Origin: an uncultured Candidatus Altimarinota bacterium | GTDB lineage: Bacteria > Patescibacteriota > Gracilibacteria > BD1-5 > UBA6164 | Length of the DNA stretch: 64,000 nt | NCBI GenBank assembly: GCA_937864295.1 | Contig: CALMJA010000015.1 | Location: 1 to 64,000, forward strand | Reading direction: 5' to 3' | Part shown: positions 5,053 to 60,354 of the stretch, in pieces | How positions within the stretch are numbered: position 1 is the first letter of the stretch | How the letters are laid out: every line of letters begins with the position of its first letter | The notes under the pieces: generated by a model | Database searches by the model: none | Told to the model about the DNA's origin: nothing | Seen by the model: the letters and a program-made list of their open reading frames with translations, nothing else | Position numbers and translations under genes: made by a program

Positions 5053-7152
5053 ATGGATTTATATACTATAATATATTTTGTTTCTATATTGTTTATAATT
5101 TTTTCAGGTTTCAGTATAAAAAATAATTTGAAAAATTTAGCTGCAAATTATTATTTTGTATTTAGTATTTTTTTATCTTTATGGTTTTTATTATATTTTG
5201 TATTTTATCTTTTAAATGATACAAAATATATTTTACTTACTTCAAAGTTCGCTTTTTTATTTTCTATTTATTGAATTTATAATTTTTTCCAATTCATAAA
5301 TTATTTTTGATTAAATTCAGTTAAATCTAAAGTAGTAAAACTTATAGAAATAGGGATTTTATCATTTATTTGATATTTATATGTTTTCACTGATTTTATA
5401 TTAAAGTGAGTAAAGCTAAATCCAAATGATAATATATATTATGAGTTGTATTGAAAATATGTATTTATACATTATGCATTAACTATATATTTGTCTTTAT
5501 TTATTATATTAGCTTTTTATTTTAAATTTAAAAAGTTAGAGTATATAAATAAAATTAGATTAAAAAATATATTTTATTCATTTTTGTTTTTCTTATTTTT
5601 TTGAGTTTTATTTCAAACAATATTGCCATATTTTTGAATTTATCTATTCGTAAAAGAAATTATACTTTTTATATTACCATTTGTAATTTTTTCTTGGCAT
5701 ACATTAAACAAATATCATTTTTCGGATCTTGCACTTAGATATAATGAAATAGTTTCATTTTCATTATCTTTATTTATAACTGTTTCATTTTTATTTTATA
5801 GAAAAAATATATGAATAAATATAGTTTATAATGATAATCTATGGTGAATTAATAGTTTTTTCACATATACTGATATTATATTTTCAGTTACATTATTTTT
5901 TATTTTATATAAAACATTTATAAATTTATTACCTTTAAATAAAGATTATGATAATTTTTTAAAGTTGTTAAATAAATTAAAAGAGCAAATACCTTTTTTA
6001 ATTGATTTTGATTGATTACAAAATCATTTAAAAAAATATGTTTCAGAAAATTTTAAAGTTAATTATATAAATATAGATCTAAATTGATATAAAAATACTC
6101 AAGTATTTGATTTTTTTAACTCTAAAAGTACAAATGATATTTTTATAAATGATATAGTTTTTTTATCAGAAAATAAATACAGATTTGATTTAGAAAAATT
6201 AAAAAGGGAATTGAATACAGACGTTTATTTGGTTATACCAATGAAAAATAATTCTTGAGAAATACTTTGATTTTTTGAGTTATGAAAGAAGCCATTTAGT
6301 GAACATTATTTTACAGATGAGATAAAGATAATAAGAGATTTTGCATGATTTTTATCATGACATTTAAAATATATCGAAATATATTCTAAAATAAATTATT
6401 TAACAATAAATTTAGATACAGAAGTTGATAAAAAAACAATAGAATATAATAACTTAATAAACAAATTAAAAGAATTTATTTCAATTAGTTCTCATGAAAT
6501 TAAAACTCCTATTTTGTCTATTTCATTGCAATTAGAAAGTATTTTAGATGATATTAATGATTGAAATATAGATATAAATTATATTAAATGAGAGTTAAAT
6601 ATATTGAAAAATCAAGTATATAAAATATCTGATTTAGTAAAAGTTTTATTTAACATAGAAAAATACGATATTTGAAAAGTATCATTATATATAGAAAAAA
6701 TAAATCTTAAAACTACATTATTATTTGAAATTGATTCTTTACAAAAGTTGAATTCAAATCTAAAAATAGATTTTGATTTTGATGAAAAAATAAATTATAT
6801 AGATTTGGACAAGGTTCAATTTTCTCAAGTAATATCAAATCTTTTACATAATGCACTTAAATTTTGTTCTAAAGATAATCCTGTTGTTTCTATAGAAGTT
6901 AAGGAAATTAAAAATAATATAAGTATAAAAATAGAAGATAATTGAAGTTGATTTAGAAAAAGAGAACAAGAATTTATATTTGAAAAATATTCTACAGGTT
7001 ATTGAAAATCTATTTGATTATGATTAGGTTTATATCTTTGTAAAAAAATAGTAGAGTTACATGCTTGAACTATAAAGGCTTGAAATTCTAAAAAATTATG
7101 ATGAGCTATGATTTCAATTATTATTCCAAAATATCAAAAAAAAGAGAATTAA
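5053..7152 (+). CDS. Membrane-bound sensor histidine kinase (699 aa)
   Basis: The N-terminal half has about eight hydrophobic segments (from residue 2 to about 300), like the 7TM N-terminal module of some kinases. A GAF-like region follows (about 320-460; VIPMKNNSGEILGFFELG, then HYFTDEIKIIRDFAGFL). The kinase core has the H-box SSHEIKTPIL with His481, N-box NLLHNALKF, G1 DNGSGF, F-box FEKYSTGYG and G2 IGLGLGLYL, so the catalytic parts are complete. By my count 28 of its 32 glycines are UGA, so a standard-code reader sees only fragments. It is followed by a hairpin and then a response regulator, the likely partner. Confidence 0.93.
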
Positions 7153-34577: not shown

Positions 34578-35126
34578 ATGAAAACAGCATTTGAAACAAG
34601 ACCAGGTAATGTAGTTGATATTGATTGAGATTTATATTTTGTTACTAAATGGGAATCTCACAGAGGTGGTAGATGAGCAACAACAGTTAAAATGAGATTA
34701 AAAAATATTTCAAGTTGATCTATGACTGACAAAGTATTTAGTAGTGATGATAAACTAAATGATGTAATTTTAGAAAGAACAGTTTTTGAATATTTATATA
34801 ATTCTGCATGAGTTTATGTATTTATGAATGGTGAAAATTATGAACAAATTGAATTAAGTGAAGAAGATGTAGGTGATATGAAATATTTTTTATCTGAAGG
34901 TTCAACAATTGATATACAACAACATAATTGAAATTTTGTTTGAATTATATTGGCTACTTATATGAAACTTAAAGTTGTAGAAGCTTTGCCACTTGTTTGA
35001 AGTAGTGAAAATAAAGAAGTAATAACAAATACATGATTAAAACTTGAAGTTCCACCTTCAATTGAAGAATGAGATGAAATAATTGTAAATACTTGAACTT
35101 TTGAGTTTGTAGAAAAAGTAAAATAA
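34578..35126 (+). CDS. efp: Elongation factor P
   Basis: 182 residues with three beta-barrels. EF-P relieves ribosome stalling at proline runs. The N-terminal KOW-like domain has PGNVVDIDGDLYFVTKWE; the tip loop that is modified in other bacteria reads HRGGRGATTVKMRLKN, with Arg32 at the tip instead of Lys. Arg at this position is the form rhamnosylated by EarP in some bacteria; no earP, epmA or epmB gene is in the window. OB-fold domains follow (VVEALPLVGSS...; the C-terminus EGDEIIVNTGTFEFVEKVK is typical). Roughly ten of sixteen Gly codons are UGA. Confidence 0.95.
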
Positions 35127-42112: not shown

Positions 42113-42784
42113 TTAGAATTTACCAGTTACTGTAAAAGTAATTGTATCTTCATATGAACCAGCTTGAGTTTGAGCGTCAGTAGTAGCAGAAACTCTAAAA
42201 GTTAAATCTTTAACTGTATTGTTAAATGCTTCTGGTTTATTTGTATTGTAAATAACATGTTCAGTTGAATTGTTATTTACTTGAGTAGTACCTAAGTTAC
42301 CAGTTGTAGTAAACCCAGATACAGTAGAATCGATTGCATTTGCAGTTGAAGCAAATGTATATGATTCAACAATACCATCAGTAGCTGTGTTATTTATTTT
42401 AATTGAATTATCATCAACATTAGTTAAACCTCCACTTCCAGATCTAGCTGTAATTGTAATACCATCAGCAGCATTAGTACCAACTTCGATATCTAATGTA
42501 CCAGATGCAGTAACACCACCTACTAATGTACCTAAATCAATTTCTGAAGTTGATAAAGTCATATTTAATGTAGGTAATACTTCAGCTCTAACAACGATTC
42601 CAGAAACAGAACCAGTTGCAAAACCAGGAAATGCATCATCCCAAACAACATTTGTATCAAAAGCACCTGTACCAGATACTCCAGCAGTACCAATGTTAGC
42701 TGCATATGAAGTACCTAAAGTTGTTGCAGCAATACCTGCAATAGAAGCTATAGCAATAGCTTTTTGTATTTTTGTTTTTACCAT
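42113..42784 (-). CDS. Probable major secreted/surface protein (223 aa, WxL- or S-layer-like)
   Basis: The likely start is ATG at 42784 (VKTKIQKAIAIASIAG, signal peptide ending TSYAA near 29); the frame is open further up to 42859 but that part lacks signal character. The mature part is Thr/Ala/Gly/Asn-rich beta protein with LNMTLSTSEIDLGTLVGG and an end GSYEDTITFTVTGKF like WxL-type surface proteins. All 24 glycines in the open frame use GGN and none UGA, in sharp contrast to neighbours, and it has the best promoter in the window. Both suggest very high expression. It could be the main coat protein. Confidence 0.8.
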   Translation of the reverse strand: MVKTKIQKAIAIASIAGIAATTLGTSYAANIGTAGVSGTGAFDTNVVWDDAFPGFATGSVSGIVVRAEVLPTLNMTLSTSEIDLGTLVGGVTASGTLDIEVGTNAADGITITARSGSGGLTNVDDNSIKINNTATDGIVESYTFASTANAIDSTVSGFTTTGNLGTTQVNNNSTEHVIYNTNKPEAFNNTVKDLTFRVSATTDAQTQAGSYEDTITFTVTGKF

Positions 42785-42863
42785 AATAACAATTATGAAA
42801 TAATATAAATTTTTTGCTAGCAAATATAAAAAGTTTGATTTGAACTTTCTATCAAGCACTATT

Positions 42864-42893
42864 ATTGTAACATATTTAAAAAGTATTTGTCAA
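42864..42893 (-). promoter_or_regulatory. Strong promoter of the major surface protein gene
   Basis: On the minus strand: TTGACA (42888-42893), 18-bp spacer, TACAAT (42864-42869). The 5' leader to ATG at 42784 is about 70 nt, longer than the roughly 20-30 nt that seems usual here. Confidence 0.75.
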
Positions 42894-42973
42894 AAAATTA
42901 ACATACTTTTTTTATATATTGAAATTTTTAATATTTTTTATATTATCTGTGTATTAAAAATAATAAGTAATAA

Positions 42974-43789
42974 ATGACTTTAGAAATACTTAAAAAATAC
43001 CATATTAAAGCTAAAAAATCTCTTGGGCAAAATTTTTTAGTAAATGAACAAATAGTAGATTGAATTTCAAATGTAATTGAAGTAAAAGACAAAAATATAA
43101 TAGAAGTTTGACCATGATATGGGGCACTAACAGAAAAACTTATAATTAAAAAACCAAAAAGTTTAAATCTAGTAGAGCTTGATCGTGATATGATAGAAGT
43201 ATTAAATAAAAGAATAGATTCTTGAGATTTTGATTTAGAATGAATTGATTTTAAAATAAATAATTTAGATGTTTTAAAATATATTCCAGAAAATAAAGAT
43301 TATAGTGTTATAGCTAATATACCTTATTATATTACAAGCCCTATTTTAAGACATTTTTTGTATGATGTAGAACATAAGCCAGAATCTATGGTTATTCTTA
43401 TGCAAAAAGATGTTTGAGATAAAATTCTTTGAAAGTGAAAAGAAAAAACTTCTGTTTTATCTCTTTTTGTTTCGAAAAAATGTTTTGTAAGTGATGAAAT
43501 ATTTGTATGAAGACAAAATTTTATTCCAGCTCCAAAAGTAGAATCAAGTGTATTGCTTTTTAAAAGCCATGAATTATATAAAGAAATAGATGATATAATG
43601 TTTTTAGAATTTATTAAAAAAGCATTTAAAGAACCAAGGAAAAAATTATCTAAAAATTTATCAAACTCTGGATATGATAAAAACTTAATTATGCAAGTTT
43701 TTTCTAAGTATTCTATAGAAGATAACACTAGATGAGAAGATTTAGATATATCTATTTGGTGCCAATTATTTTGAGAATTTAACAAATAG
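42974..43789 (+). CDS. rsmA: 16S rRNA dimethyladenosine transferase RsmA/KsgA
   Basis: 271 residues. SAM-binding loop IIEVGPGYGALTEKL (about 42-56), acidic end of strand 2 NLVELDRDM, catalytic block VIANIPYYITSPILRHFL (about 111-128) containing the NIPYY motif, and the C-terminal domain with FIPAPKVESSVL and FKEPRKKLSKNL. N-terminus KKSLGQNFLVNE is standard. It dimethylates two adenines at the 3' end of 16S rRNA. By my count 11 of 14 glycines are UGA. Confidence 0.97.
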
Positions 43790-43895
43790 TTAACTAGAAA
43801 AACTTGAACAAAGCATATTTTTTTTTATAATCTGGACCTTATTGTAATTAGAAATAAATTTTTTATTAAATTTTGTTTTATAAATAATAAAAATA

Positions 43896-45242
43896 ATGCA
43901 TAAAAAAGCTATAATCCACATAATGACTAAATCTAGGATGAAAAGCGAAGTTTTTACTGCTGATATTGAAGCTATGCAAGAAATATCAAAAAAACATTCT
44001 ATAAAAAATATTATTTTTTATAAATGAGAAAAAGTAGAATACATCGATTTATTATCTAAGTTAGATCAATTAGGTATTTTTTTATATAACTATTCAAATA
44101 AATCTGATTTAATTAATCAAGTATCAGAGTTAAATAAAAATTTTGAAATTATATTTGTAAATACAACTTTAGAATTGCTTATAAATATAGCAAATGATGT
44201 TAAAAAAAGTATCTGACAAAAAATAACTACAAACCCAAAAATTTATAGAAATAAATTTTTACAAAGAGAATTAATACAAAAACATAATCCAAATTTAGGA
44301 GTCAAATTTATCAAGTGAACAATTGAAACTTTAAAAATAGAAGATATAGAAAAAAATGTACCATATCCTTTTATAATTAAACCAGTAGATTGAGTACAAA
44401 GTTCATGAGTTGCAAAAATAAAAAATAGAAATGATTTTGATAATTATATATCACATTATAATGAATTTCATGATAGATTAGAACTTAGATGAATACATAC
44501 TAAAGAGTTATTAATTGAAGAATTTATAGATGGTACACTTTATTCAGTTGATTATTTTGTGAATCAAGAATGAAAAATAATTCTTACAAAACCAGTTAAA
44601 CAAAGACTTTTAACAGATATAAATTTTGAAGATTATTGAGTATTAGCTAGAATTTCTTCAAAAAAAACTGAAAGTGAATTTAAATGAAAAAAATTATCTG
44701 TTTTTGTTTCTTCAACTGTTGAAGCAACTTGAATTAAAAATACATATGTTCATCATGAATTTAAAATAAATAGTAAATGAGAATTAAAAACTATAGAAAT
44801 AAATTGAAGGATTTGAGGTTGAAGATTGGAACTTTTAAAAAATGCATATTGATTAAATATTTATGAATTAGTTTGTAATATCGAATTAAAGTTACCTAAA
44901 TTGAAGGAAAACAATATTGTCACAAATATATATTCAACAAAAAAATGAATACTTACAAGTTTCAATCATAATTTAATTGAAAAAATGAAAGAAAAACCTT
45001 CTATTTATGAAATAGAAACTGATGAAACTGCTATTTGAAAAGAAATTTGATTAACAAAGGATTGATTTATAAAAATATGAGCTATAAAAATGGCAAATAA
45101 AAATTATGATGAATTAGCAGAAGATTTCAAATTCGTAAAAAAACATTATTGAGATTTATTAATTGTTGATGAATTTGAAGAAAGTAAAAAAATAAAAAAG
45201 AAAAATATATTTAAAATATTTAGAAATTATTTAAATATATAA
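43896..45242 (+). CDS. ATP-grasp carboxylate-amine/thiol ligase-like protein (448 aa)
   Basis: The N-terminal preATP-grasp region (about 1-115) is followed by the ATP-grasp fold: KFLQRELIQKHNPNLG (lid side), YPFIIKPVDGVQSSGVAKI (about 152-170, nucleotide Lys and glycine loop), ELLIEEFIDGTLYSVDYF, and the metal site TIEINGRIGGGRLELLKNAYG. Layout is that of BioC/L-amino-acid-ligase-type members. The substrate is not clear. No neighbour hints at a pathway. Confidence 0.8.
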
Positions 45243-45272
45243 AAAAATGAAACCTGCAGGTTTCATTTTTTT
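45243..45272 (+). terminator. Terminator after ATP-grasp gene
   Basis: AATGAAACCTG / CAGGTTTCATT followed by a T-run; includes a PstI-like CTGCAG centre. Confidence 0.85.
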
Positions 45273-45343
45273 ATGGCTTTACTTTTTGCATTTTATTTAT
45301 AAAATACGCCAGATAATTATATAAATATATGTTTTAAAAAGAT

Positions 45344-47227
45344 ATGGAATTAAATAAAATTAGAAATTTTTGTATTATAGCTCATATAGATCACGGTAAA
45401 TCAACTCTTGCTGATAGATTACTTGAAATCACTTGAACTATAGATAAAAGAGATATGAAGAATGGGCAAATGCTTGATACGATGGAATTGGAACAAGAAA
45501 GATGAATAACTATAAAATTGACTCCAGTTCGTATGAATTGGAAAGGTTATCAAATGAATATAATTGATACTCCAGGGCATGTTGATTTTCAATACGAAGT
45601 AAGTAGAAGTTTAGCATCTGTTGAAGGTGCTCTTTTAATAGTTGATGCAACTCAATGAATTGAAGCACAAACTTTGAGTAATGTTTATATGGCAATTGAA
45701 AATGACTTAGATATTATACCTGTTATAAATAAGATAGATCTACCTGCTGCTGATTTTGATAAAGTAGCACTAGAAATAGTAAATCTTTTATGATGTGATA
45801 AATCTGAAATTATATGAGTTTCAGCTAAAACATGAGAAAATGTAGAAACAATTTTAGATGAAGTAATAAAAAGAGTATCATCACCAAAAGTTTATTCAGA
45901 AAAAAAACCTGATAATGATGAATTAAAAGCACTTGTTTTTGATTCTCAATATGATGCTTATAGATGAGTAGTTTCATATGTAAAAGTTTTTCAAGGTGAA
46001 ATTAAAAAATGAGATATTTGTCATTTTTTAAATACAAATAAAAAAATAGAAGCACTTGATGTAGGGTATTTTTCTCCTGGTTATACAAGTGATAAAAAAA
46101 TAGAATTAGGTACTATATGATATGTAGTTACTTGATTAAAAACTATTAGAGATGCAAAAGTTTGAGATACTATGTGGAAACCAGAAATGGTAGAATGACC
46201 AAAAGAAAAACCAGAAAATGCAACTCCAATAGAATGATTTTGACTTGTTACACCATTTATATATGCATGAATATTTGCAATGGATAGTAGTGAATATCCA
46301 TTACTTAAAGATGCAATGGAAAAACTAGTTTTAAATGATTCATCTTTATTTGTTGAGACAGATGTTTCACCGGCTTTATGACATGGTTATAGATGTGGTT
46401 TTCTTTGATTACTACATTTAGAAATAGTAAAAGAAAGATTACTTAGAGAATTTGGGATGGATGTTATAATGACTGCTCCACAAGTTACATATAGAGTAGT
46501 TTTACTTTGAGATAAAAGATCAGAATATTCTAGATTTTTACCAGAATATATAGAAAGTGAAAAATGACAAAAATGTACTAGAATACTTATTTCAAATCCA
46601 GAGGAACTTCCAAATAGAGAAAAATATCTTTATATAGAAGAACCAATTGCAAAAGTAGAAATAATTACTCCACTTGAGTATGTTTGAAATTTGATGCAGT
46701 TAAGTCAAGATAGAAGAGGAAGTTTTAAAAATCAACAATTTATTGATTCAGATAGAGTAATGTTAACTTATGAGTTACCTATGAATGAATTAATTTGAGA
46801 TTTTTATGATGAAATTAAATCACTTAGTTCAGGTTATGCATCACTTAACTATGAGTTTATAAAATATAGTGAGGATGATTTAGTAAAATTAGAAATACTT
46901 ATAGCAGACGAAAAAGTAGATGCATTAGCTTTTATTTGTCATAGAAAACAATCTCGTTATTTATGATGAAAAATATGTGCTAATCTAAAAGAGTCTATTC
47001 CAAAAGCACTTTTTACAATAAAAATTCAAGCAGTAGTTTGAGGTGATGTTGTATGAAGAGAAGATATATCAGCTATGAGAAAAGATGTAACTGCAAAGCT
47101 TTATGGTTGAGATATAACAAGAAAGAAAAAATTACTTGAAAAACAAAAACAAGGTAAAAAGAAAATGAGACAATTTTGAAAAGTAAGTCTTCCTAGTGAA
47201 GTTTTTGTTAATTTATTAAAAAAATAG
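45344..47227 (+). CDS. lepA: Elongation factor 4 (LepA)
   Basis: 627 residues. GTPase that remodels stalled ribosomes. G1 [16 protein letters not shown] (about 13-28), switch with [12 protein letters not shown]3 [11 protein letters not shown]4 VINKIDLP, G5 GVSAKTGENV. LepA-specific parts follow: [21 protein letters not shown] and the C-terminal domain with [45 protein letters not shown]. About 25 residues longer than usual, mostly in domain II ([22 protein letters not shown]). Confidence 0.97.
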
Positions 47228-47249
47228 TAGACAAAGTCTACTTTTTTTT
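47221..47249 (+). terminator. Terminator of lepA
   Basis: AGTAGAC-AAA-GTCTACT followed by a run of eight T. Confidence 0.85.
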
Positions 47250-47283
47250 GTATATTAATATTAATTATCAATTACATATTTAT

Positions 47284-48420
47284 ATGTTTACAAAATTTTT
47301 AAAAAGTATATCTAGAAATAATGTGGTTTTACTTAAACCACTTATGAAAAATAATATCATGCAGAATCCTGTAATTTTTTGATATTCTAAGATTTTAGAT
47401 TTAAAAGATTATAGATATATTTATTTATGAAATCTTTATGCTCAAAAAGCAAAACTTCAAAAAGTACTTAATAGAATTGAAAAAAATAAATCGAAATTAG
47501 ACTTATTACATTATGAAATTTTAAAAAAGGAAATTAAATTTAGTTATAAAAAGATAGATTTTTTAAAAAATGTTTATGATTTTGAAGCAAATAAAATAGA
47601 TCCAAAATACAAGATTTCATATCCAGAATTTGATTATGATTATTATAATAAAATATTTTTTTGAGTAACAAAAAATGATATACAAAAAGATGTAGTTATA
47701 ACAGCGCAAGAAGAAAATAATCAAAATATAACAAAAAAACAATTGATAGAACTTTTAGCTTTTTCTAGCGAAAAAGTTCCTTGATTAAAATACAAGTTTT
47801 GAGCTTATGCTTTTATGTCGCATTCATCAGGAGTATTGGTTATTCCAAATAAAAAAATTTATTCTCTAAGAGAATTGATAACTCTGTTTTTTCATGAAAT
47901 GACTCATTTTTTTAGAAGATATAACAATATAAGAAATTTTTGAACTAGTTATGGTTTCTCTGATTATATGAAGCTAGAAGAAGGTTTTTCACTTTATAAT
48001 GAGTATTTTTATGGTGATAAATTAATTCCATGATTAAAATATAATGCATATTATGATGTTTGTTATGCTATATTGTTAAATGAAAAATTAAATCAAAAAC
48101 AAAAACAAGAACGTATATATAATGTACTTAAAATTAAGGGATTTTCTCGTGAAAAAGCAATGCATTATTATTATCGTTTTCATCGTTATGCTAGTGTTTG
48201 ATGAAATCAATTTTTCTTAAAAGATTTGGTTTATACAAAATGATATGAAAAAGTATTAAAAAAATTGGAAAAAAATCCAAAAAATTATGATATATTCTTC
48301 TCAGGAAGAATTTGATTAGCTTCTATAAAATCAAAATTATATAATACAACAAATAATTTTGATACAAGAGCATACTTTGAATCTATACTAATAGAAATAC
48401 AAAAAAAGATATGAAATTAA
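47284..48420 (+). CDS. DUF1704-type zinc metallopeptidase (378 aa)
   Basis: The zinc site FFHEMTHFFRRYNN (about 203-216) gives HExxH, followed by LEEGFSLYNEYFYG (about 233-246), whose Glu is the third ligand as in DUF1704/MATCAP-type zincins. N-terminal 130 residues are helical and basic. No signal peptide is obvious. In eukaryotes relatives trim tubulin tails; bacterial targets are unknown. Confidence 0.75.
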
Positions 48421-48433
48421 TCATATCTTTTTT
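48401..48433. terminator. Bidirectional terminator
   Basis: AAAAGATATGA / TCATATCTTTT around an AATTAA loop, between the convergent metallopeptidase and regulator genes. Confidence 0.8.
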
Positions 48434-48908
48434 AAATTTTTATATTTATACTTATTTCTATATCCTCATCTTCATTTAATGGATTTTTCATTTTAAATAT
48501 GTTTAATCCTGGTTTTATATAAATTGGTTCATGAGGTATTTCTTTTTTCTTAAGTAGTAAATTTATTTTTTCTACTACGTCACTTGGATTTGTATTTGCC
48601 TTAATTAAATAATCATCAGCTCATGCTTCCATAGCTTTTTCTATTTTATCTTTGTCTACAACATTTGTAAACATAACTATTTTGCTTCTTGAAGATGTTT
48701 GATGTTTTATAGCTTCCAATGTTTCAAATCAGTTCATTGTAGGCATCATTATATCTAGAAGTATTACATCTGGATTGTAATCTCAAATGCAAGTTAAACC
48801 TTCTAATCAGTTGATTGATTCTTTTACGTCAAATCACTCTTTTCTTAATTTCAAAGCATACATTTCACTTAATACTTTGTCATCTTCTATTATTAATATT
48901 TTTTTCAT
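48432..48908 (-). CDS. Single-domain response regulator (158 aa)
   Basis: CheY-like receiver: ILIIEDD (4-10), phospho-acceptor Asp52 in VILLDIMMPTMNGFE, Thr in VMFTNV, and Lys in LIKANTNP. After the receiver (about 125) there is a 30-residue extension (IPHEPIYIKPGL ... EISINIKI) but no DNA-binding domain. It lies 18 bp downstream of a soluble histidine kinase gene and is its likely partner. Confidence 0.92.
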
Positions 48909-48926
48909 ATTGATTATATTAGGAAA

Positions 48927-49628
48927 TTAAATTAAATTTAATTCAAAACTAAAATTACTTCATTCTCAAACTTGAGATTTTACTTCTATTTCACTTCAGA
49001 AGTCTTTTATAAAATTTTTACATAATGCAAGTCATATTCCAAGACCAGTTGTATTTTGTCTTTGCATACTAGATTCTATTTGACTAAACTTTTCAAATAT
49101 TTCTTTTATTTTTTCTTTAGGAATTCATATACCATTATCAATAACTTCAAATTTCACTTTATTTTTTACTTTACTTGCTTTTATTATTATTTTTCATCAA
49201 ATATCTGTAAATTTTACTGCATTGTTAATTAGATTTATAAATACTTGTCTTATTTTATCAGGATCTATATTTATTTCTTTTCATTTTAAGTTCTTGTCTA
49301 TTTCTATTTCAAAATTTACTCATTTGTTTTCAATTTCAAGAAAAACATCATTATAAACTAATTTAAGTAATTCAGTTATCATTACTTCTTGCATATAATA
49401 TTCCATTTTTCATGATTCTATTTTTGATAATGCAAGTACATCATTTACAAGATTTATAAGTCTAACAGAGCTATCATAGCAGTGATTTAATGCTTTTCTA
49501 GCTTCAGGACTTACATCTCACATATCTCACTCTAAAATCATTGAAATATATCATCTAATTGATGTTAGAGGAGTTCTCAGTTCATGTCAAACTATTGATA
49601 TAAATTCATCATTTTTGTTTTTGCTCAT
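48927..49628 (-). CDS. Soluble histidine kinase without sensor domain (233 aa)
   Basis: Starts directly at the dimerisation domain: MSKNKNDEFISIVGHELRTPL with phospho-acceptor His15, N-box INLINNAVKFT, G1 VIDNGIGIP, F-box IFEKFSQ and G2 TGLGIGLALCKNF. No membrane segment or N-terminal sensor, so the input must come from a partner protein. It forms an operon with the single-domain regulator. Confidence 0.92.
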
Positions 49629-49703
49629 AACAGGGTTTTTATATATATATTTATATTTTATTACTCTTTTTAAAAAAAAGCTAAAAAAAGGCCTATTTTT
49701 ATT

Positions 49704-49731
49704 TTGACAAATAGAGCTTTTTTAATATAAT
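49704..49731 (+). promoter_or_regulatory. Promoter of tRNA-His
   Basis: TTGACA (49704-49709), 16-bp spacer, TATAAT (49726-49731); tRNA starts 30 bp downstream. Confidence 0.8.
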
Positions 49732-49760
49732 AACCGGGCTTTTTTCAAGGAAGCATATAT

Positions 49761-49838
49761 GGTGCTCGTAGTTCAGTTGGTTAGAATGCCAGATTGTGAC
49801 TCTGGAGGTCGAGGGTTCGAACCCCTTCGAGCACCCCA
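49761..49838 (+). tRNA. tRNA-His, anticodon GTG
   Basis: Cloverleaf with the 8-bp acceptor stem typical of tRNA-His (GGTGCTCG/CGAGCACC, including G-1:C73), anticodon stem CCAGA/TCTGG with loop TTGTGAC (anticodon GTG), T-arm GAGGG-TTCGAAC-CCCTT and encoded CCA. Its last part (49818-49841) is repeated exactly at 49979-50002. Confidence 0.95.
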
Positions 49839-50002
49839 TATATAAATTTAAAAAATGCTTATAATTTTTCGTATTTAGCTAACTTATAGTTGCTAGGTTC
49901 GAAAGGAGGTTTTTTCGAAGAAAAATTTTATTGTGACGAATAGGAACAATAAAAACGGAGGCCCGACCTGAAAGGCGGCGAACCCCTTCGAGCACCCCAT
50001 AT
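49818..50002 (+). repeat. 24-bp direct repeat of the tRNA-His 3' end
   Basis: CGAACCCCTTCGAGCACCCC plus ATAT occurs at 49818-49841 (T-arm, acceptor, CCA and three downstream bases) and again at 49979-50002. The copies are 161 bp apart. Such duplications are left by integration at a tRNA 3' end, but no integrase or cargo gene lies between them. Confidence 0.8.
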
Positions 50003-50250
50003 TAAGTTTCTCTTGAGATGATTGACGGAGTCAAAAATCACAAGGAAAGTTACATCGAACGATAGTGAGATGAAAAACTTATTTTTAATTAAAAGTTTTT
50101 AAGTAGAAAGTTATTAAGTCCTAAGCTTACTTTTTACTACATAGATTTTTAGTTATTTCTTTTTTTAAAAGCCTTATAAAACTAAAAGAATTAATTCTTA
50201 AATTTATAGCTATCTAAATACTAGATGGTATTATTTTATTTCTTTAACAT
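49842..50250 (+). ncRNA. Structured non-coding stretch between tRNA-His and rpsA
   Basis: About 410 bp with no gene. It is GC-richer than its surroundings up to about 50075. Possible hairpins: TTCGAAA-GGAGG-TTTTTTCGAA (about 49897-49918; an AAGGAGG sequence overlaps the stem and loop), the segment AACGGAGGCCCGACCTGAAAGGCGG before the second tRNA-end copy, TTGAC-GGA-GTCAA (near 50022-50034) and CATC...GATG (near 50055-50074). The remainder (50080-50250) is plain AT-rich leader. I could not match it to tmRNA, RNase P RNA, 6S or SRP RNA. It may be an ncRNA, an rpsA leader or the remnant of an insertion. Confidence 0.4.
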
Positions 50251-51414
50251 ATGTTTGCCATGGTTGCAAAAAAACAAGATTTAACTCTATTTGAAGAGTT
50301 ATTTGCTGCATCTCCTGAGATTAAATATCCAAAACAAGGAGAAGTTATTTCTGGTTCAATTATTAAAATTGAAAAGAAAAATATTTTAGTAAATGTTAAC
50401 AATCAATTTACTGGTTTAGTAGTTGCAAAAGAAGTAGGTAACACTATTGATTTAAATGACTTACAAGCTGGTCAAGGAATTGAAGTAATGGTTTTAGGTG
50501 ATTCTGTAGAAAGAGGTTTATTAATTCTTTCATTAAAAAGAGCTAATCAAATTAAAAATCTTTCAAATCTTACAAAATACAACACATCTAATGAAATTAT
50601 TACTGTTAGACCTACTGAAGCTAATAAATGAGGTTTACTAGTTGATATTGATGGTTTAAAAGGGTTCATACCTGTTTCTCAATTAACTCCATTACATTAT
50701 CCAAGAGTTGAAGGAGCTGATCCTGAAAAAATTCTTGCTCATTTAGATTCTTTAGTTGGTATTCCATTTAAAGTAAGAGTTATAAATGTAGATGAAGCTG
50801 GTAAAAAAATCATCTTCTCTGAAAAAGCTGCTATTGAAGAAAATAGAGGTGAAGCATTAAAAAACTTAAAAGAAGGAGATATCGTTGAAGGTACTATTTC
50901 AGGTATTTTATCATACGGTTTATTCGTTACTTTTGATGGTTTAGAAGGTTTAGTTCACGTTTCTGAAATCGATTGGGGACATGTTACAGATCCTTCAAAA
51001 TTTGCTAAAGTTTGAATGAAAGTTAAAGTTAAAGTTATAGGACTTGATAGTGAAAAAATTTCATTATCTATTAAAAGACTTAAAGAAAATCCTTGGGATG
51101 TTCTTGCTAAAAAATTTAAACTTAATGATTCAATTACTGCTCCAATTTCTAGAATTTCTAAATTTGGTGCGTTTATGGATCTTGAAGGTTGAATTCAAGG
51201 TTTAATTCACTTATCTGAAATTTCTCATGGTGTTGTTAAAGACATAAGAGATCATATTAAAGTTGGTGAAGAAGTTACTGCAAAAATTATCAATTTCGAA
51301 CCTGAGAAAAAAAGAATTGGTTTATCATTAAAAGCTTTACAAGAAGCTCCTGCTGATATGCCTAAAGCTGAAGAAACTTCAGAAGTTAAATCAGAAGAAG
51401 CAAAAGCTGAATAA
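50251..51414 (+). CDS. rpsA: 30S ribosomal protein S1
   Basis: 387 residues with four S1 repeats (about 28-95, 117-185, 205-270 and 290-360), each with the GxVxxI...GxFVxL...GLVHxSE pattern (for example SGILSYGLFVTFDGLEGLVHVSEIDWG). Four repeats rather than six is common in small genomes. Only 3 of 32 glycines are UGA, so it follows the highly expressed pattern. The start chosen is ATG at 50251; an in-frame ATG three codons later is possible. No Shine-Dalgarno precedes it. Confidence 0.95.
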
Positions 51415-51447
51415 TTTAAAATTTAATAAAAAAATATTTTTGGGAAA

Positions 51448-51521
51448 TAGAGAGGAATCTTTCTCTCTATACAAAAATATTATACAAAGACTACCTGTTT
51501 GAGTTTTCTCAAAATAGTCTT
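51448..51521 (+). promoter_or_regulatory. Two-hairpin leader of rpsB
   Basis: Hairpin 1: TAGAGAG ... TCTCTCTA (51448-51469). Hairpin 2: AAGACTA-cctg-TTTGAG-tttt-CTCAAA-a-TAGTCTT (51487-51521), a two-step stem with an internal bulge. Neither has a T-run. rpsB starts 29 bp later. Leaders of rpsB in other bacteria bind S2 for autoregulation; that role here is inferred. Confidence 0.5.
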
Positions 51522-51549
51522 GATTTAATAATTAATATACAAGGTAAAA

Positions 51550-52386
51550 ATGGAAAAAACAATCTTAAATTCAATGTTTGATAATTTATTACATATTGGT
51601 AATAAATCTAATTACTGGAATCCAAAAATGAAAAGATATATTTATGGATCAGTAAATGGTATACACGTAATTAATTTAACTAAAACTGCTTCAAAAATTG
51701 AAGAAGTTAAAGCTGAATTAAAAGAATTACACACAAGTGGTAAAAAAATCCTTTTCGTTGCTACAAAATTACAAGCAAGAGATGCTATTTCTAAATTAGC
51801 TGCTGAATCAGGACATTTTTACGTTGCTGAAAAATGGGTACCAGGTTTATTAACAAACTTTAAAACTATTAAAAGAAGAATTGCTACTTATTTACAATTA
51901 GATAAAGATTTAAATAGTGGAGCTTTTGATATGTTAAGTAAAAAAGAAAAAGCATCTAAAATGCTTGAATTAGAAAAATTAAATAAAGCATACGCTTGAG
52001 TAAAAGAAATGAAAAAAATCCCAGATGTAATTTTTGTTATTGATGGTGTTTTTGAAGAACAAGCTGTTAGAGAAGCTAATCAATTAAAATTATTATCATA
52101 CGCTGTTTTAAATACAAATGGTGATGATACTGTTCTTACTAATTGTATTCCTGCAAATACAAATTCAGTTAAATCAATTGAATATATTGCAGCTGCATTA
52201 AAAGAATCATTATCAGGAAAAGCTAGAGAAGTAACTTCTACTCCTTCTACTGGAACTACTGCTCCAGCTAAAGTAAAAAAAGTTGCTGAAACTAAAGTAA
52301 GTGGTGAAAAAAAAGCTCCAGCTAAAAGAACTCCAAAAAAAGTTGCTGAAGTAGAAGCTAAAGTTGAAACTACTGAACAAAATTAA
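51550..52386 (+). CDS. rpsB: 30S ribosomal protein S2
   Basis: 278 residues. Family blocks: HIGNKSNYWNPKMKRYIYGSVNGIHVINLTKT (split here as about 16-47), VATKLQARDAI, KWVPGLLTNFKTIKRRI, KKIPDVIFVIDGVFEEQAVREANQ and NTNSVKSIEYIAAAL. The C-terminal 60 residues are a Lys/Ala/Thr-rich tail (TPSTGTTAPAKVKKVAETK), as in many CPR S2 proteins. One of 13 glycines is UGA (AYAGVKE). A weak AAGG lies 6 nt before the ATG. Confidence 0.96.
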
Positions 52387-52444
52387 TTTGAATTTTTTAA
52401 GGAATAATTATTATGTAGTTATTCCTTATTCTTAAAAATATATT

Positions 52445-52783
52445 ATGGACGAAAATAAACAAACAAATGAAAATTTGAAATATGCTTTATGTTATGTTCC
52501 TCTTGTTGCTTTTATTTTATTCTATGTAGAAAAAAAGAAAACTGCTATTTTGGAGAAACATGTTAGATATGGTATGTTTATATTTTGAGCTTACCTTATT
52601 TTATTGATATTGGTTTCATGGTTGTTTAAATGATTACTATGATTATTTTATGTTTGAGTTTCTGTTTTTATGTGATATAAAACTTACATAGGAGAAGATA
52701 TTCAAATCAAATTTATTGACGATTTTTTCGATAAATCAAAATCTGATAAACCAGTTAATTCTGATAAATCAGATGAATTATAA
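52445..52783 (+). CDS. Small membrane protein (112 aa)
   Basis: Three hydrophobic segments (LCYVPLVAFILFYV, about 15-28; YGMFIFGAYLILLILVSWLF, about 44-63; LLGLFYVGVSVFMGYKTYIG, about 66-85) and a hydrophilic Lys/Asp/Ser tail. The pattern resembles the Tic20/DUF4870-type small membrane proteins. Lies between rpsB and tsf on the same strand, which are normally adjacent; its role there is unknown. Confidence 0.75.
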
Positions 52784-52810
52784 AATTTATATTTTAATAT
52801 TATTTTGATT

Positions 52811-53596
52811 ATGGCAATTACAGCTGCTCTAATAAAAGAATTAAGAGAAATTACATGAATCGGTATGATGGAATGTAAAAAAGCATTAGAAGAAACAAAT
52901 GGTGATATTGACTTAGCTATTGAAGAATTAAGAAAAAAAGGTTTAGCTAAAGCTGCTAAAAAAGCTGATAGAGAAACTTTTGAATGAGGTATTAGAATAT
53001 TAACAGAAGGTGGAAAAGCTTATGTTGTTTCTGTAGCTTGTGAAACTGACTTTTTAGCAAATTCTGATAGATTTAAAACTATGCTTGATGATGTTGTTAA
53101 TTTTTTAAAATCAAACGGTGCTGATTCTAAAGAAGCTGCACAAGAATTCATAAATAAAAACTACGCATTAGAAATGGGTGAAAACTTACAAGTTTCTAAT
53201 TATGCTATATTTGAAGGTGGAGTTGCTTCTGCATACGTTCATTCAAATGGTAAATTAGCTGCTTTAATAGTTGCTGCTGCAGGTACTGATGCTGAAAAAG
53301 CAAAACAAGTTGCTATGCATGTTACTGCTTCAAATCCAGAATTTTTAAGTGCTGATGACATAAGTGATGAAGTAGTTGAAAAAGAAAAATCAATTCAATT
53401 AGAAATGATGAAAAATGATCCAAAAATGGCTGGGAAACCAGATGAAGTTTTACTTAAAATTATTGATGGTAAAATGGGAAAATTTAAATCTGAAATTTCT
53501 TTATTAGAACAAGATTTTGTTATGGATCCAAATGTTAAAGTTAAAAACTTTATTGGTGAAAAATCAATTACTGCATTTTACAGATTCAGTATATAA
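52811..53596 (+). CDS. tsf: Elongation factor Ts
   Basis: 261 residues. The UBA domain has [45 protein letters not shown] (about 9-53, read in parts), then [14 protein letters not shown] (about 77-90) that contacts EF-Tu, and the core and C-terminal module ([25 protein letters not shown]). It recharges EF-Tu with GTP. Two of 18 glycines are UGA. rpsB-tsf order is conserved except for the inserted small membrane protein gene. Confidence 0.96.
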
Positions 53597-53628: not shown

Positions 53629-53703
53629 ACCTCCATAGTTAAGCGGTTATAATGCAGGACTCCAAATCCTGCGTGCTTGGTTCGATTCCAAGTGGGGGTG
53701 CCA
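53629..53703 (+). tRNA. tRNA-Trp, anticodon CCA
   Basis: Acceptor ACCTCCA/TGGGGGT, D-arm GTTA/TAAT, anticodon stem CAGGA/TCCTG with loop CTCCAAA (anticodon CCA), T-arm CTTGG-TTCGATT-CCAAG, discriminator G and encoded CCA. It reads UGG; this fits a genome where UGA is not Trp. Confidence 0.95.
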
Positions 53704-58530: not shown

Positions 58531-60354
58531 ATGTCAGATTTAATGAAAAAAATAGATGCAATGGATACTAATACGAAAATTAAATTTTCTGATTTAGGTT
58601 TATCAGACAGAATGCTAGCAAAAATTACAGCAAAAGGTTATGAATATCCAAGTGCAATTCAAGCATGAGTTATACCATTACTTTTAAATGGTAATAAAGA
58701 TATTATTGGTCAAGCTCAAACTGGTACTGGTAAAACAGCAGCTTTTGCACTTCCAGTTTTAGAAAGATTAGATACAAATTCTAGAGATATTCAAACTTTA
58801 ATATTAACACCAACTAGAGAATTAGCTATTCAAGTTGCAGAAGAAATTAGATCATTTGCTGATTCTAGTGTTAAAATTCAATTACTTTATTGAGGTCAAA
58901 ATATTAGAGATGAATTATCAGGTTTAAGATCAGGACCTCAAATAGTTGTAGGTACTCCAGGTAGAGTTATAGACCATTTAACAAAAAGAAAAACTTTAAA
59001 TATTGATAAAATTAAATATTTTATCTTAGATGAAGCTGATGAAATGTTAAATATTGGGTTTAAAGAAGAAATAGAAGAAATAATTACATTTACTCCAAAA
59101 GAGAAAAAAGTTTTACTTTTTTCAGCTACTATGCCAAAAAGTATCAAAGATATAGTAAATAAATATATCAAAGATCATGATTTAGTTACTATTGAAAGAA
59201 ATGAATTAACAAATTCAAATATAGAACAAAAATGTTATAAAATTAATGACAGAGATAAATTTGAAGCTTTATGTAGAGTAATAGAAGTAGAATTTGATTT
59301 TTACGGTATATTATTTTGTAGAACAAAAGCTGATGTTGATGAAGTTGCTGCAAAATTGATGAGCAGAGGTTATAAAGTAGAATGAATTCATGGTGATATA
59401 GAACAAAAAATGAGAGAAAAAACTCTTGCTAGATTTAAAAATGGTGCTATAAAAATTCTTGTTGCTACTGATGTTGCTGCTAGATGAATTGATGTAAATA
59501 ACTTAACTCATGTAGTTAATTATTCACTTCCAGATAATCCAGAAACATATACACATAGAATTGGTAGAACTGGTAGAGCTTGAAATAAATGAGAAGCTAT
59601 TTCATTTGTATCAAGAAAAGATTCAAGAATGCTTTCTTGGATTGAAACTGCTATTAAATCAAAAATTAAAGTAGAAAAATTACCAGAAGTTTCTGATGTA
59701 ATTGAATTTAAGAAAAAAAGATTAATAGATAATACAAAAGAATTATTATTAAATAAAGAAGAATTACATTATATTGATTTAGCAAAAGATTTACTTGATT
59801 TAGGAAATCCTCCTGAAGAAATAATTGCTGCTATATTAAAAGAATGATATTGAAAAGAATTTTCAACTACTCATTATAGTGAATTAAGAGAAGATAGTTT
59901 TTCTTCTGATAGTAGATGAGATAGATGAGAAAGAAGTGATAGATGAGATAGAGGTGAAAGAGGTTTTGCACCAGTTCCAGGTCAAAGAAGATTATTTGTT
60001 GCTAAATGAAAACTTGATTGATTTTCACCAGGTTCATTAATTCAATTTATTGAAAAAGAAGCTGAATGCAAATTATGAGATGTTGGTAATATAGATATAA
60101 TGAGAGAATTTTCTTTTATTAATTTAAGTGATGATGATTCATCATTTGTATTAAAGAAATTTAAAGAATTAAATCCTCAAAAACCACTTATTGTTGAAGC
60201 TAAAAGAGATTGAGCATCAAGTTCATCTTCTAGTTCAGGATGATATAGAGGAGGTTCTTCAAGTAGATGAGGATCAAGAGGATGATATAGAGGAGGTTCT
60301 TCTTCTAGATCTAGTTCTAGTTCATCAAGATGAGGTTTCAAAAAAAGAGATTAA
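58531..60354 (+). CDS. deaD: DEAD-box RNA helicase 2 (DeaD/CsdA-like, 607 aa)
   Basis: All helicase motifs are present: [15 protein letters not shown] (about 69-83), [66 protein letters not shown] and [13 protein letters not shown]. Then a helical linker, an RSDRGDRGERG stretch, a DbpA-type RNA-binding domain ([22 protein letters not shown]; about 487-508 on) and a C-terminal Ser/Arg/Gly tail with YRGG repeats. Many tail glycines are UGA mixed with GGA/GGT. The family acts in ribosome assembly and RNA turnover in the cold. Confidence 0.95.

Follow-up and report, generated by a model that had tools for sequence, protein, structure and literature searches.

Depletion of the reassigned glycine codon UGA in ribosomal and translation genes of a code-25 bacterium and its relatives

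UGA is the commonest glycine codon of this code-25 genome, a MAG placed by its relatives in Candidatus Gracilibacteria, where it makes up 74% of the Gly codons in the other genes sampled, and it is depleted in ribosomal and translation genes, a pattern that is clade-wide. The explanation that we favor, with a probability of about 0.7, is that synonymous selection for efficient elongation disfavors UGA-Gly in highly expressed genes, where expression, tRNA levels and decoding speed are what we infer from the genomes. The reading of UGA as glycine is supported by alignments of 22 genes of this genome with E. coli proteins, in which 113 of 181 UGA positions face Gly. A tRNA with a UCA anticodon and a glycine-type acceptor (G1:C72, C2:G71, U73) is encoded at L046:13184-13262 on the minus strand.

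UGA counts in the window and in the genome

Within the window, which is the whole 64,000-nucleotide stretch of DNA that was analyzed, UGA accounts for 3 of 32 Gly codons in rpsA (50251..51414, plus strand; Pfam S1 domains), 1 of 13 in rpsB (51550..52386, plus strand; ribosomal protein S2, PF00318, Ribosomal_S2) and 2 of 18 in tsf (52805..53596, plus strand; EF-Ts, PF00889, EF_TS). These machine counts under code 25, along with those of two ordinary comparison genes, a histidine kinase (5053..7152, plus strand; 28/32) and rsmA (42974..43789, plus strand; 11/14; RrnaAD), and of the intermediate efp (34578..35126, plus strand; 10/16; EF-P), each with Pfam support, are all identical to the hand counts of the preliminary description. 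Its count of 0/24 for a putative exported or surface protein (42113..42904, minus strand) stands from the likely start, Met41, which precedes a signal-peptide-like stretch, but the ORF as called from the first ATG gives 1/25. This protein has no Pfam match, and its name is based only on the signal-like N-terminus. A DEAD-box RNA helicase with a DbpA domain (58531..60354, plus strand; Pfam) is likewise intermediate, at 19/51. When pooled, rpsA, rpsB, tsf and the surface protein have 7 UGA among 88 Gly codons, versus 801 of 1079 in the remaining window (Fisher p 3e-36), and among the 53 window genes that have 8 or more Gly codons UGA share is heterogeneous (chi2 270, 52 df). Low UGA is a property of genes and not of the 42-54 kb region, in which lepA, an ordinary conserved gene (45344..47227, plus strand; 27/44; LepA_C match at 46904-47221), rsmA and an ORF at 52445 (5/7) are interspersed.

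The lowest UGA shares among 333 of the genome's own genes, a ranking that leaves out phage contig L042 (as do the within-genome correlations below), include those of L7/L12 (0/13), S2, S1, L19, EF-Ts, L25 and L10. Nine of the 333 genes have a share below 0.2, and seven of these nine encode ribosomal proteins or EF-Ts. It should be noted that ribosomal genes are not uniformly near zero, for example rplB (12/36), rplC (11/28), rplD (5/12) and rplV (3/7); further counts are 6/10 in rpsS, 2/2 in rplW, 1/4 in rpsJ, 6/11 in rplK and 7/33 in the EF-Tu gene. The preliminary description had expected UGA share to fall with codon adaptation across the genome, and a negative correlation was found, albeit a weak one (rho -0.257 against Gly-free codon adaptation, partial -0.235). 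Its proposal that expression level could be predicted from UGA use holds only for the low tail of the distribution, since a rank correlation of this size is weak. Highly expressed genes have a UGA share of 0.45 over codons 1-15 (n=352) versus 0.28 mid-gene; this excess was set aside because mechanically set, over-extended starts would yield it, as in the surface-protein ORF.

Breadth and variation among relatives

Genes were called mechanically as the longest ORFs under code 25, and those taken as highly expressed were recognized through phmmer matches to 54 E. coli K-12 proteins. In all 21 genomes compared, ribosomal proteins have a lower UGA share than the remaining genes (Fisher p<0.05 in 19), counts that are non-independent trials because the genomes are related, and the 'other' set of this genome (G000) includes phage contig L042. 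In a second collection, partly of the same species as the first (e.g., CP042461.1 and G035), S1, S2 and EF-Ts fall below neighboring genes in UGA share at 52 of 53 testable loci. From the 72 loci of this collection, nine were omitted (eight that are not Gracilibacteria-like by title or identity, plus L294, labelled Flavobacteriaceae), and among the 63 loci that were kept, ten had Gly codons in insufficient number. These comparisons bear out both the expected link with ribosomal-protein status across code-25 genomes and the broader claim of selection against UGA in genes expected to be highly expressed. Similar differences are seen against individual conserved, single-copy genes, with rpsA below recA in 21/21 genomes, tsf below recA in 18/18, and rpsB below recA in 19/20 and below lepA in 20/20; rplB is below lepA in only 17/22.

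Among 22 codon contrasts, UGA versus GGN has the largest pooled log odds ratio (-1.28, negative in 21/21 genomes), and UGA versus GGA alone gives -1.03 (negative in 20/21). The median for Arg AGA versus CGN (+1.75) exceeds that for Gly UGA versus GGN (-1.39), and UGA therefore ranks first among the contrasts by the pooled value but not by the median. Ribosomal genes also prefer C-ending two-fold codons and GCU/GUU, with Arg shifted to AGA. GGU is favored over GGA in 18 of the 21 genomes, and this preference may account for part of the shift away from UGA.

The relatives range widely in the strength of avoidance. UGA is scarce overall in G006 and absent from its rpsA, rpsB and tsf; in this genome and in G024 it is common and excluded from highly expressed genes; and in G003 and G030 its use is nearly equal across gene classes (ribosomal 222/323 versus other 338/460, and 119/217 versus 280/466, respectively; neither difference is significant). 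Locus L318 is reversed (UGA share 0.69 versus 0.59), as is G059, which also reads UGA as Gly and favors it in highly expressed genes (translation genes 318/342 versus 5705/6724 elsewhere; 0.93 versus 0.85, p 1e-5). Given the opposite bias of G059 and the lack of a significant difference in G003 and G030, neither avoidance nor its cost is intrinsic to the recoded codon.

Of the 45 family genomes with listed or zero matches, 41 carry a single tRNA-Gly(UCA) gene of the same type as that at L046 and four lack one, with three more genomes unlisted, and each of 21 family genomes has one tRNA-Gly(UCC) gene. In G059, neither the 26 Rfam tRNA matches nor the 344,811 sampled bases yielded a tRNA-Gly(UCA). 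Within the family, avoidance strength is associated with base pair 4:69 of tRNA-Gly(UCA), with a mean log odds ratio of -0.73 for A-U (n=7) and -1.63 for G-C (n=13) in a post hoc comparison of 20 genomes (p 0.0017, or 0.001-0.004 when corrected for phylogeny). A T-stem variant of the same tRNA showed no comparable difference in avoidance. We tentatively raise the scenario, which we consider rather doubtful, that the reassigned codon invades weakly expressed genes before strongly expressed ones and that the final step awaits a tRNA change.

Efficiency, tRNA supply and the alternatives

In the explanation by selection for efficient elongation, UGA is read by one dedicated tRNA-Gly(UCA) and GGN apparently by one tRNA-Gly(UCC). 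Demand on the UCA tRNA would be heavy because AT-biased mutation would drive Gly codons to UGA genome-wide. In very frequently translated transcripts, slow or supply-limited decoding of UGA would be costly, and selection would retain GGN (GGU, GGA), with a strength set by the tRNA pool of each lineage that may vanish or reverse. The signal looks like one of efficiency or tRNA supply; of the causes suggested in the preliminary description, a slower or rarer tRNA-Gly(UCA) would fit, whereas a less accurate one is not supported, as conserved Gly sites are not UGA-poor. Bacteria are known for codon bias by gene class, a product of translational selection among synonymous codons. The bias described here shares this feature, following ribosomal class in 21/21 genomes with base composition not the cause, but differs in that the disfavored codon is a former stop and the commonest Gly codon. 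An opposite expectation is that tRNAs of alternative codes may be expressed above canonical ones (PMC10746230).

Another possibility, which we consider unlikely, is that accuracy is at stake, with UGA occasionally misread (e.g., as Trp by tRNA-Trp(CCA)) and abundant proteins shunning faulty copies. This would be consistent with the UGA/UGG split pair, for which U34 wobble ambiguity has been noted (PMC8629427), and with BD1-5 proteomics under the strictest filter, where UGA peptides comprised 40 Gly, 1 Trp and single Ala, Lys and Asp (PMC4032931). However, tRNA-Trp(CCA) in this genome, the near-cognate competitor for UGA (53629..53703, plus strand), has a full-length anticodon stem, and conserved versus variable Gly sites gave pooled log odds ratios of +0.19 in 23 families taken as highly expressed, including secY (505 strata, p 0.04), and +0.22 in recA and lepA (60 strata, p 0.19). 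Within genes, conserved Gly sites show no shortage of UGA, and accuracy is therefore unsupported. Somewhat less probable again is that UGA is young as a Gly codon and that slow-evolving genes are still unfilled, as the near-empty rpsA, rpsB and tsf of low-UGA genomes (0/32, 0/12 and 0/17 in G006) might suggest. Mutational lag of this kind is contradicted by conserved recA and lepA, which are filled with UGA in the same genomes, and by the presence of UGA in some sequence at 26/28 conserved Gly columns of rpsA, 9/9 of rpsB and 7/8 of tsf (30, 30 and 26 sequences). UGA at most of these columns implies fast synonymous turnover, in which the codon arises and is removed.

Base composition, whereby highly expressed genes would retain more G+C and so avoid the most AT-rich Gly codon, is very unlikely to be responsible. 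Ordinary-gene UGA share does fall with local GC across the 53 loci (rho -0.88), and in this genome with whole-gene GC (rho -0.59), more strongly than with codon adaptation, although the choice between UGA and GGN itself alters gene GC. At non-Gly fourfold sites, however, ribosomal genes have lower G+C than other genes in 21/21 genomes, with Arg moving toward AGA, and UGA share in this genome correlates positively with fourfold GC (+0.26); ribosomal genes are thus AT-richer at fourfold sites and yet avoid the AT-rich Gly codon. An equally slim chance is left for early termination by a release factor competing for UGA, a mechanism put forward for eukaryotes that have reassigned stops; in Blastocrithidia, reassigned codons are depleted in highly expressed genes and the release factor still reads one stop triplet (PMC12153298). 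Against this, RF2 was undetected in this genome (MAG 91% complete), whose single prfB-model match is below cut-off and resembles prfA. Among the 48 family genomes, only G029 had a match above the cut-off; this genome is 2.7 Mb in size with two RecA genes, and its prfB copy, which is without UGA, is perhaps a contaminant. BD1-5 genomes have been described as lacking prfB (PMC6851277). A horizontal origin of rpsA, rpsB and tsf in a bacterium that uses the standard code would agree with the clustering of three of the four low-UGA genes at 50-54 kb, but it is contradicted by orthologues that are low in nearly all family genomes, by best matches to other Gracilibacteria (up to 97% identity) and by unlinked genes for L7/L12, L19, L25 and EF-Tu that are also low, leaving its probability negligible.

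A phage contig and known systems

Phage contig L042, from the same MAG, is a code-25 contig with a UCA tRNA beside other tRNA genes, and its major head protein has 9/30 UGA versus 173/210 for the remaining ORFs called on it (p 1e-8), a result based on one contig. The patescibacterial phage RSA-ATP1 encodes its own tRNA-Gly(UCA) and resembles L042 as a code-25 phage with the UCA tRNA beside other tRNA genes (PMC13059738); the low UGA of the L042 major head gene has no counterpart statement in the available text of that report. A tblastn search of a phage collection with the L042 terminase gave three distant matches, the head protein search gave no confirmed relative, and the core of the host tRNA-Gly(UCA) had 0 matches in IMG/VR. 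Relatives in IMG/VR by the L042 terminase (8 loci, 30-33% identity, GC 0.52-0.53) differ little in coding density between codes 11 and 25 and so are of no use as code-25 phages.

The low tail of UGA share could flag probable highly made proteins in hard-to-culture bacteria, such as the unknown exported protein described here. Because the relatives span the range between strict avoidance and reversal, they form a natural series in which to ask how a reassigned codon gains full acceptance and which tRNA changes accompany it.

Published descriptions of code 25 in Gracilibacteria and Absconditabacteria share UGA as Gly, tRNA-Gly(UCA), no RF2 and low GC with the genome described here, but in their available text are without the expression dependence of UGA use seen here (PMC4032931, PMC6851277, PMC8629427). 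A literature search found no bacterial report of such depletion. The closest likeness is to Blastocrithidia, in which reassigned stops are rarer in abundant proteins and in ribosomal proteins of the cytosol, becoming scarcer as the codon adaptation index rises (PMC12153298). Blastocrithidia is a eukaryote with UAR=Glu, UGA=Trp and UAA still a stop (PMC12153298), whereas the present system is a bacterium with UGA=Gly, RF2 undetected in the genome and at least one relative, G059, with the opposite bias. The depletion suggests that reading UGA as Gly is still costly: a codon reassignment may be old, genome-wide and dominant in number, yet costly under the heaviest translation, even with RF2 undetected. 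This would separate two costs that are usually argued jointly, that of terminating prematurely and that of decoding slowly or with a scarce tRNA.

UGA usage within the window and its source genome

The avoidance of UGA in genes expected to be highly expressed is real and clade-wide. Within the window (G000:C15:1-64000, 22.6% GC), machine counts under code 25 confirmed all of the per-gene hand counts in the preliminary description, including those for the four genes with low UGA shares (UGA among all Gly codons), namely rpsA, rpsB, tsf and a surface protein ORF at 42113-42904 on the minus strand (0/24 counted from the likely start, 1/25 as called). These genes differ from the remainder of the window (p 3e-36), and the 48 other genes, with the helicase at 58531 also removed, are fairly even (chi2 78, p 0.003). 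Not every ribosomal gene of the source MAG, G000, is as low as rpsA, rpsB and tsf; for example, the S10-operon genes on locus L033 are less depleted (from 3/7 and 12/36 at the low end to 6/10 and 2/2 at the high end). Arginine codons of the CGN type are nearly missing from the window (AGA 497, CGA 1, CGG 2, CGT 17, CGC 0).

UGA encodes glycine in G000 (105 contigs, 1,275,281 bases in total, 91% complete). When 22 of its genes were aligned to Escherichia coli proteins, 113 of 181 UGA positions fell opposite Gly, and L046:13184-13262 carries a UCA-anticodon tRNA whose acceptor is of the glycine type. Of 48 family genomes, only one scored above the cut-off of the prfB profile model, and it was not G000; this exception, G029 (locus L148; 2.7 Mb), carries a prfB copy without in-frame UGA and two RecA genes, which suggests contamination. 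The window's rpsA matches records titled Candidatus Gracilibacteria at 95-97% identity. An rpsA 90% identical to that of G000 also occurs on L294 (JAUMXI010000061.1), a contig titled Flavobacteriaceae that is probably misbinned, and a weak 100-nt Rfam tRNA match at G000:C47:671-770 (30.9 bits, no ARAGORN call) is perhaps an odd or interrupted tRNA.

Among 333 G000 genes containing eight or more Gly codons (a 38% sample of the genome, phage contig excluded), a blind ranking placed only nine below a UGA share of 0.2: a DsbA/thioredoxin-like protein, L7/L12 (0/13), the surface protein, S2, S1, L19, EF-Ts, L25 and L10. EF-Tu (0.21), EF-G (0.25) and a second EF-G-like GTPase (0.31) followed. As expected from the earlier proposal that highly expressed genes avoid UGA, UGA share was negatively correlated with Gly-free codon adaptation across these genes (rho -0.257, p 2e-6; partial rho -0.235; -0.206 with reference genes removed).

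Ribosomal and other genes across the family

The same proposal held when genes were divided by ribosomal-protein status, with UGA share lower in ribosomal proteins in 21/21 family genomes and significantly so (p<0.05) in 19, the others being G030 (p 0.21) and G003 (p 0.15). The pooled log odds ratio of UGA against GGN, -1.28, ranked top of 22 contrasts and was negative in every genome. Compared with recA and lepA, taken as conserved ordinary genes within each genome, UGA share was lower in rpsB (19/20 and 20/20 genomes, respectively), tsf (18/18 and 17/17), rpsA (21/21 and 20/22) and rplB (20/22 and 17/22). Likewise, S1, S2 and EF-Ts were lower than neighbouring genes in 52 of 53 named GTDB loci, which share species with the first genome set (mean 0.20 vs 0.56; sole exception L318). 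In the neighbouring family f2, a few genes point in the same direction: dnaK 0/45 vs 0.23 (G107), rpsB 5/12 vs 0.76 (G131), recA 2/35 vs 0.29 (G197) and rpsB 1/18 vs 0.11 (G181). AUA is likewise avoided in highly expressed genes in 20/21 genomes.

Base composition could be proposed as an alternative explanation, given that whole-gene GC is more strongly correlated with UGA share in G000 (rho -0.59) than codon adaptation is; this relationship is partly circular, and fourfold GC gives rho +0.26, opposite to the direction that a GC explanation requires. Ribosomal genes have lower fourfold GC than other genes in 21/21 family genomes, and their arginine codons shift to the AT-rich AGA relative to CGN (median log odds ratio +1.75, larger than the UGA versus GGN median). 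UGA is also avoided relative to GGA alone (-1.03, 20/21 genomes), and GGU rises relative to GGA in ribosomal genes in 18/21.

Accuracy, supply and the tRNA-Gly(UCA)

The preliminary description had tentatively attributed the avoidance to a tRNA-Gly(UCA) that is slower, rarer or less accurate. Reduced accuracy finds no signature at conserved Gly columns, where UGA is not depleted (log odds ratios +0.19, p 0.04, and +0.22, p 0.19). UGA occurs in at least one genome at nearly all of these columns (rpsA 26/28, rpsB 9/9, tsf 7/8, rplB 26/26, recA 31/32, lepA 34/34), indicating that mutation reaches them. Single conserved Gly columns carry UGA in most sequences (rpsB 20/30, rpsA 22/30, rplB 29/33), a much higher frequency than at the remaining columns of these genes. 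The favoured interpretation of the avoidance is that selection for efficient translation acts on a reassigned codon that would still be costly. One canonical tRNA-Gly(UCA) match was found in 41/45 family genomes; each of 21 has one tRNA-Gly(UCC), and the pattern used gave no clear match to tRNA-Gly(GCC) in these 21. The tRNA-Gly(UCA) is 79 nt and nearly invariant, and in nine full family copies and the G000 copy its D-loop, AAAAGAGTGA (AATAGAGTGA in two), lacks the GG pair usual in tRNA D-loops. This single gene and unusual D-loop make a limit on supply or quality plausible.

Base pair 4:69 of this tRNA differs between lineages, and a link spotted post hoc, with the untyped G045 left out, associates it with avoidance strength (A-U -0.73, n=7; G-C -1.63, n=13; p 0.0017; p 0.001-0.004 under phylogenetic regression). 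We regard this as a lead. Avoidance strength showed no link to a T-stem variant (p 0.49) or to genome GC (rho -0.21, p 0.38).

A counter-example comes from G059 (L250-L253, L361-L380; 0.7 Mb), which the kinship assignment used places in the same class as G000 and a different order. UGA falls opposite Gly at 111 aligned positions (Ala is second, 14), and among 344,811 sampled bases it is more frequent in translation genes (318/342) than in others (5705/6724; p 1e-5), showing that disfavour of UGA-Gly under high expression is no inherent property of the codon. Other codons, e.g., Phe, Ala and Thr, keep their gene-class differences. No UGA-reading tRNA was found among its 26 Rfam tRNA matches or in the sampled bases. 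As rpsB of its order-mate G069 has no in-frame UGA, the reassignment in G059 may be independent. The cost of UGA-Gly would be fixed by the tRNA pool of each lineage, with expression and tRNA levels as we infer them.

Phage and published parallels

By PHROGs matches, the phage-like, code 25 contig L042:1-14395 (G000:C96) carries genes for a major head protein, a portal, a terminase and head-tail adaptors. This contig is an independent genome, represented by one contig only, with the same split in UGA by expected expression: the head protein gene has 9/30, whereas the share is 24/27 for portal, 27/31 for terminase and 173/210 when every called ORF except the head protein is pooled. A second low-UGA ORF lies at 785-1564 (9/20). 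Its small tRNA cluster holds tRNA-Leu-like and tRNA-Met genes and its own tRNA(UCA), which has U73 and, in contrast to the host tRNA-Gly(UCA), a GG-bearing D-loop. In carrying its own tRNA(UCA) the contig resembles phage RSA-ATP1, whose tRNA-Gly(UCA) is described in the available part of PMC13059738.

The accessible portions of PMC4032931, PMC6851277, PMC8629427, PMC10746230, PMC13059738, PMC11452946 and PMC13092985 do not report UGA depletion in highly expressed genes of Gracilibacteria, nor do the titles or abstracts retrieved by searches of the open-licence literature. The suggestion in the available text of PMC10746230 that alternative-code tRNAs may be expressed above canonical ones is argued against, for most of the family, by the depletion pattern. 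The closest parallel is Blastocrithidia, where, according to the part of PMC12153298 at hand, reassigned codons are scarcer in highly expressed genes, as UGA is across the family of G000.
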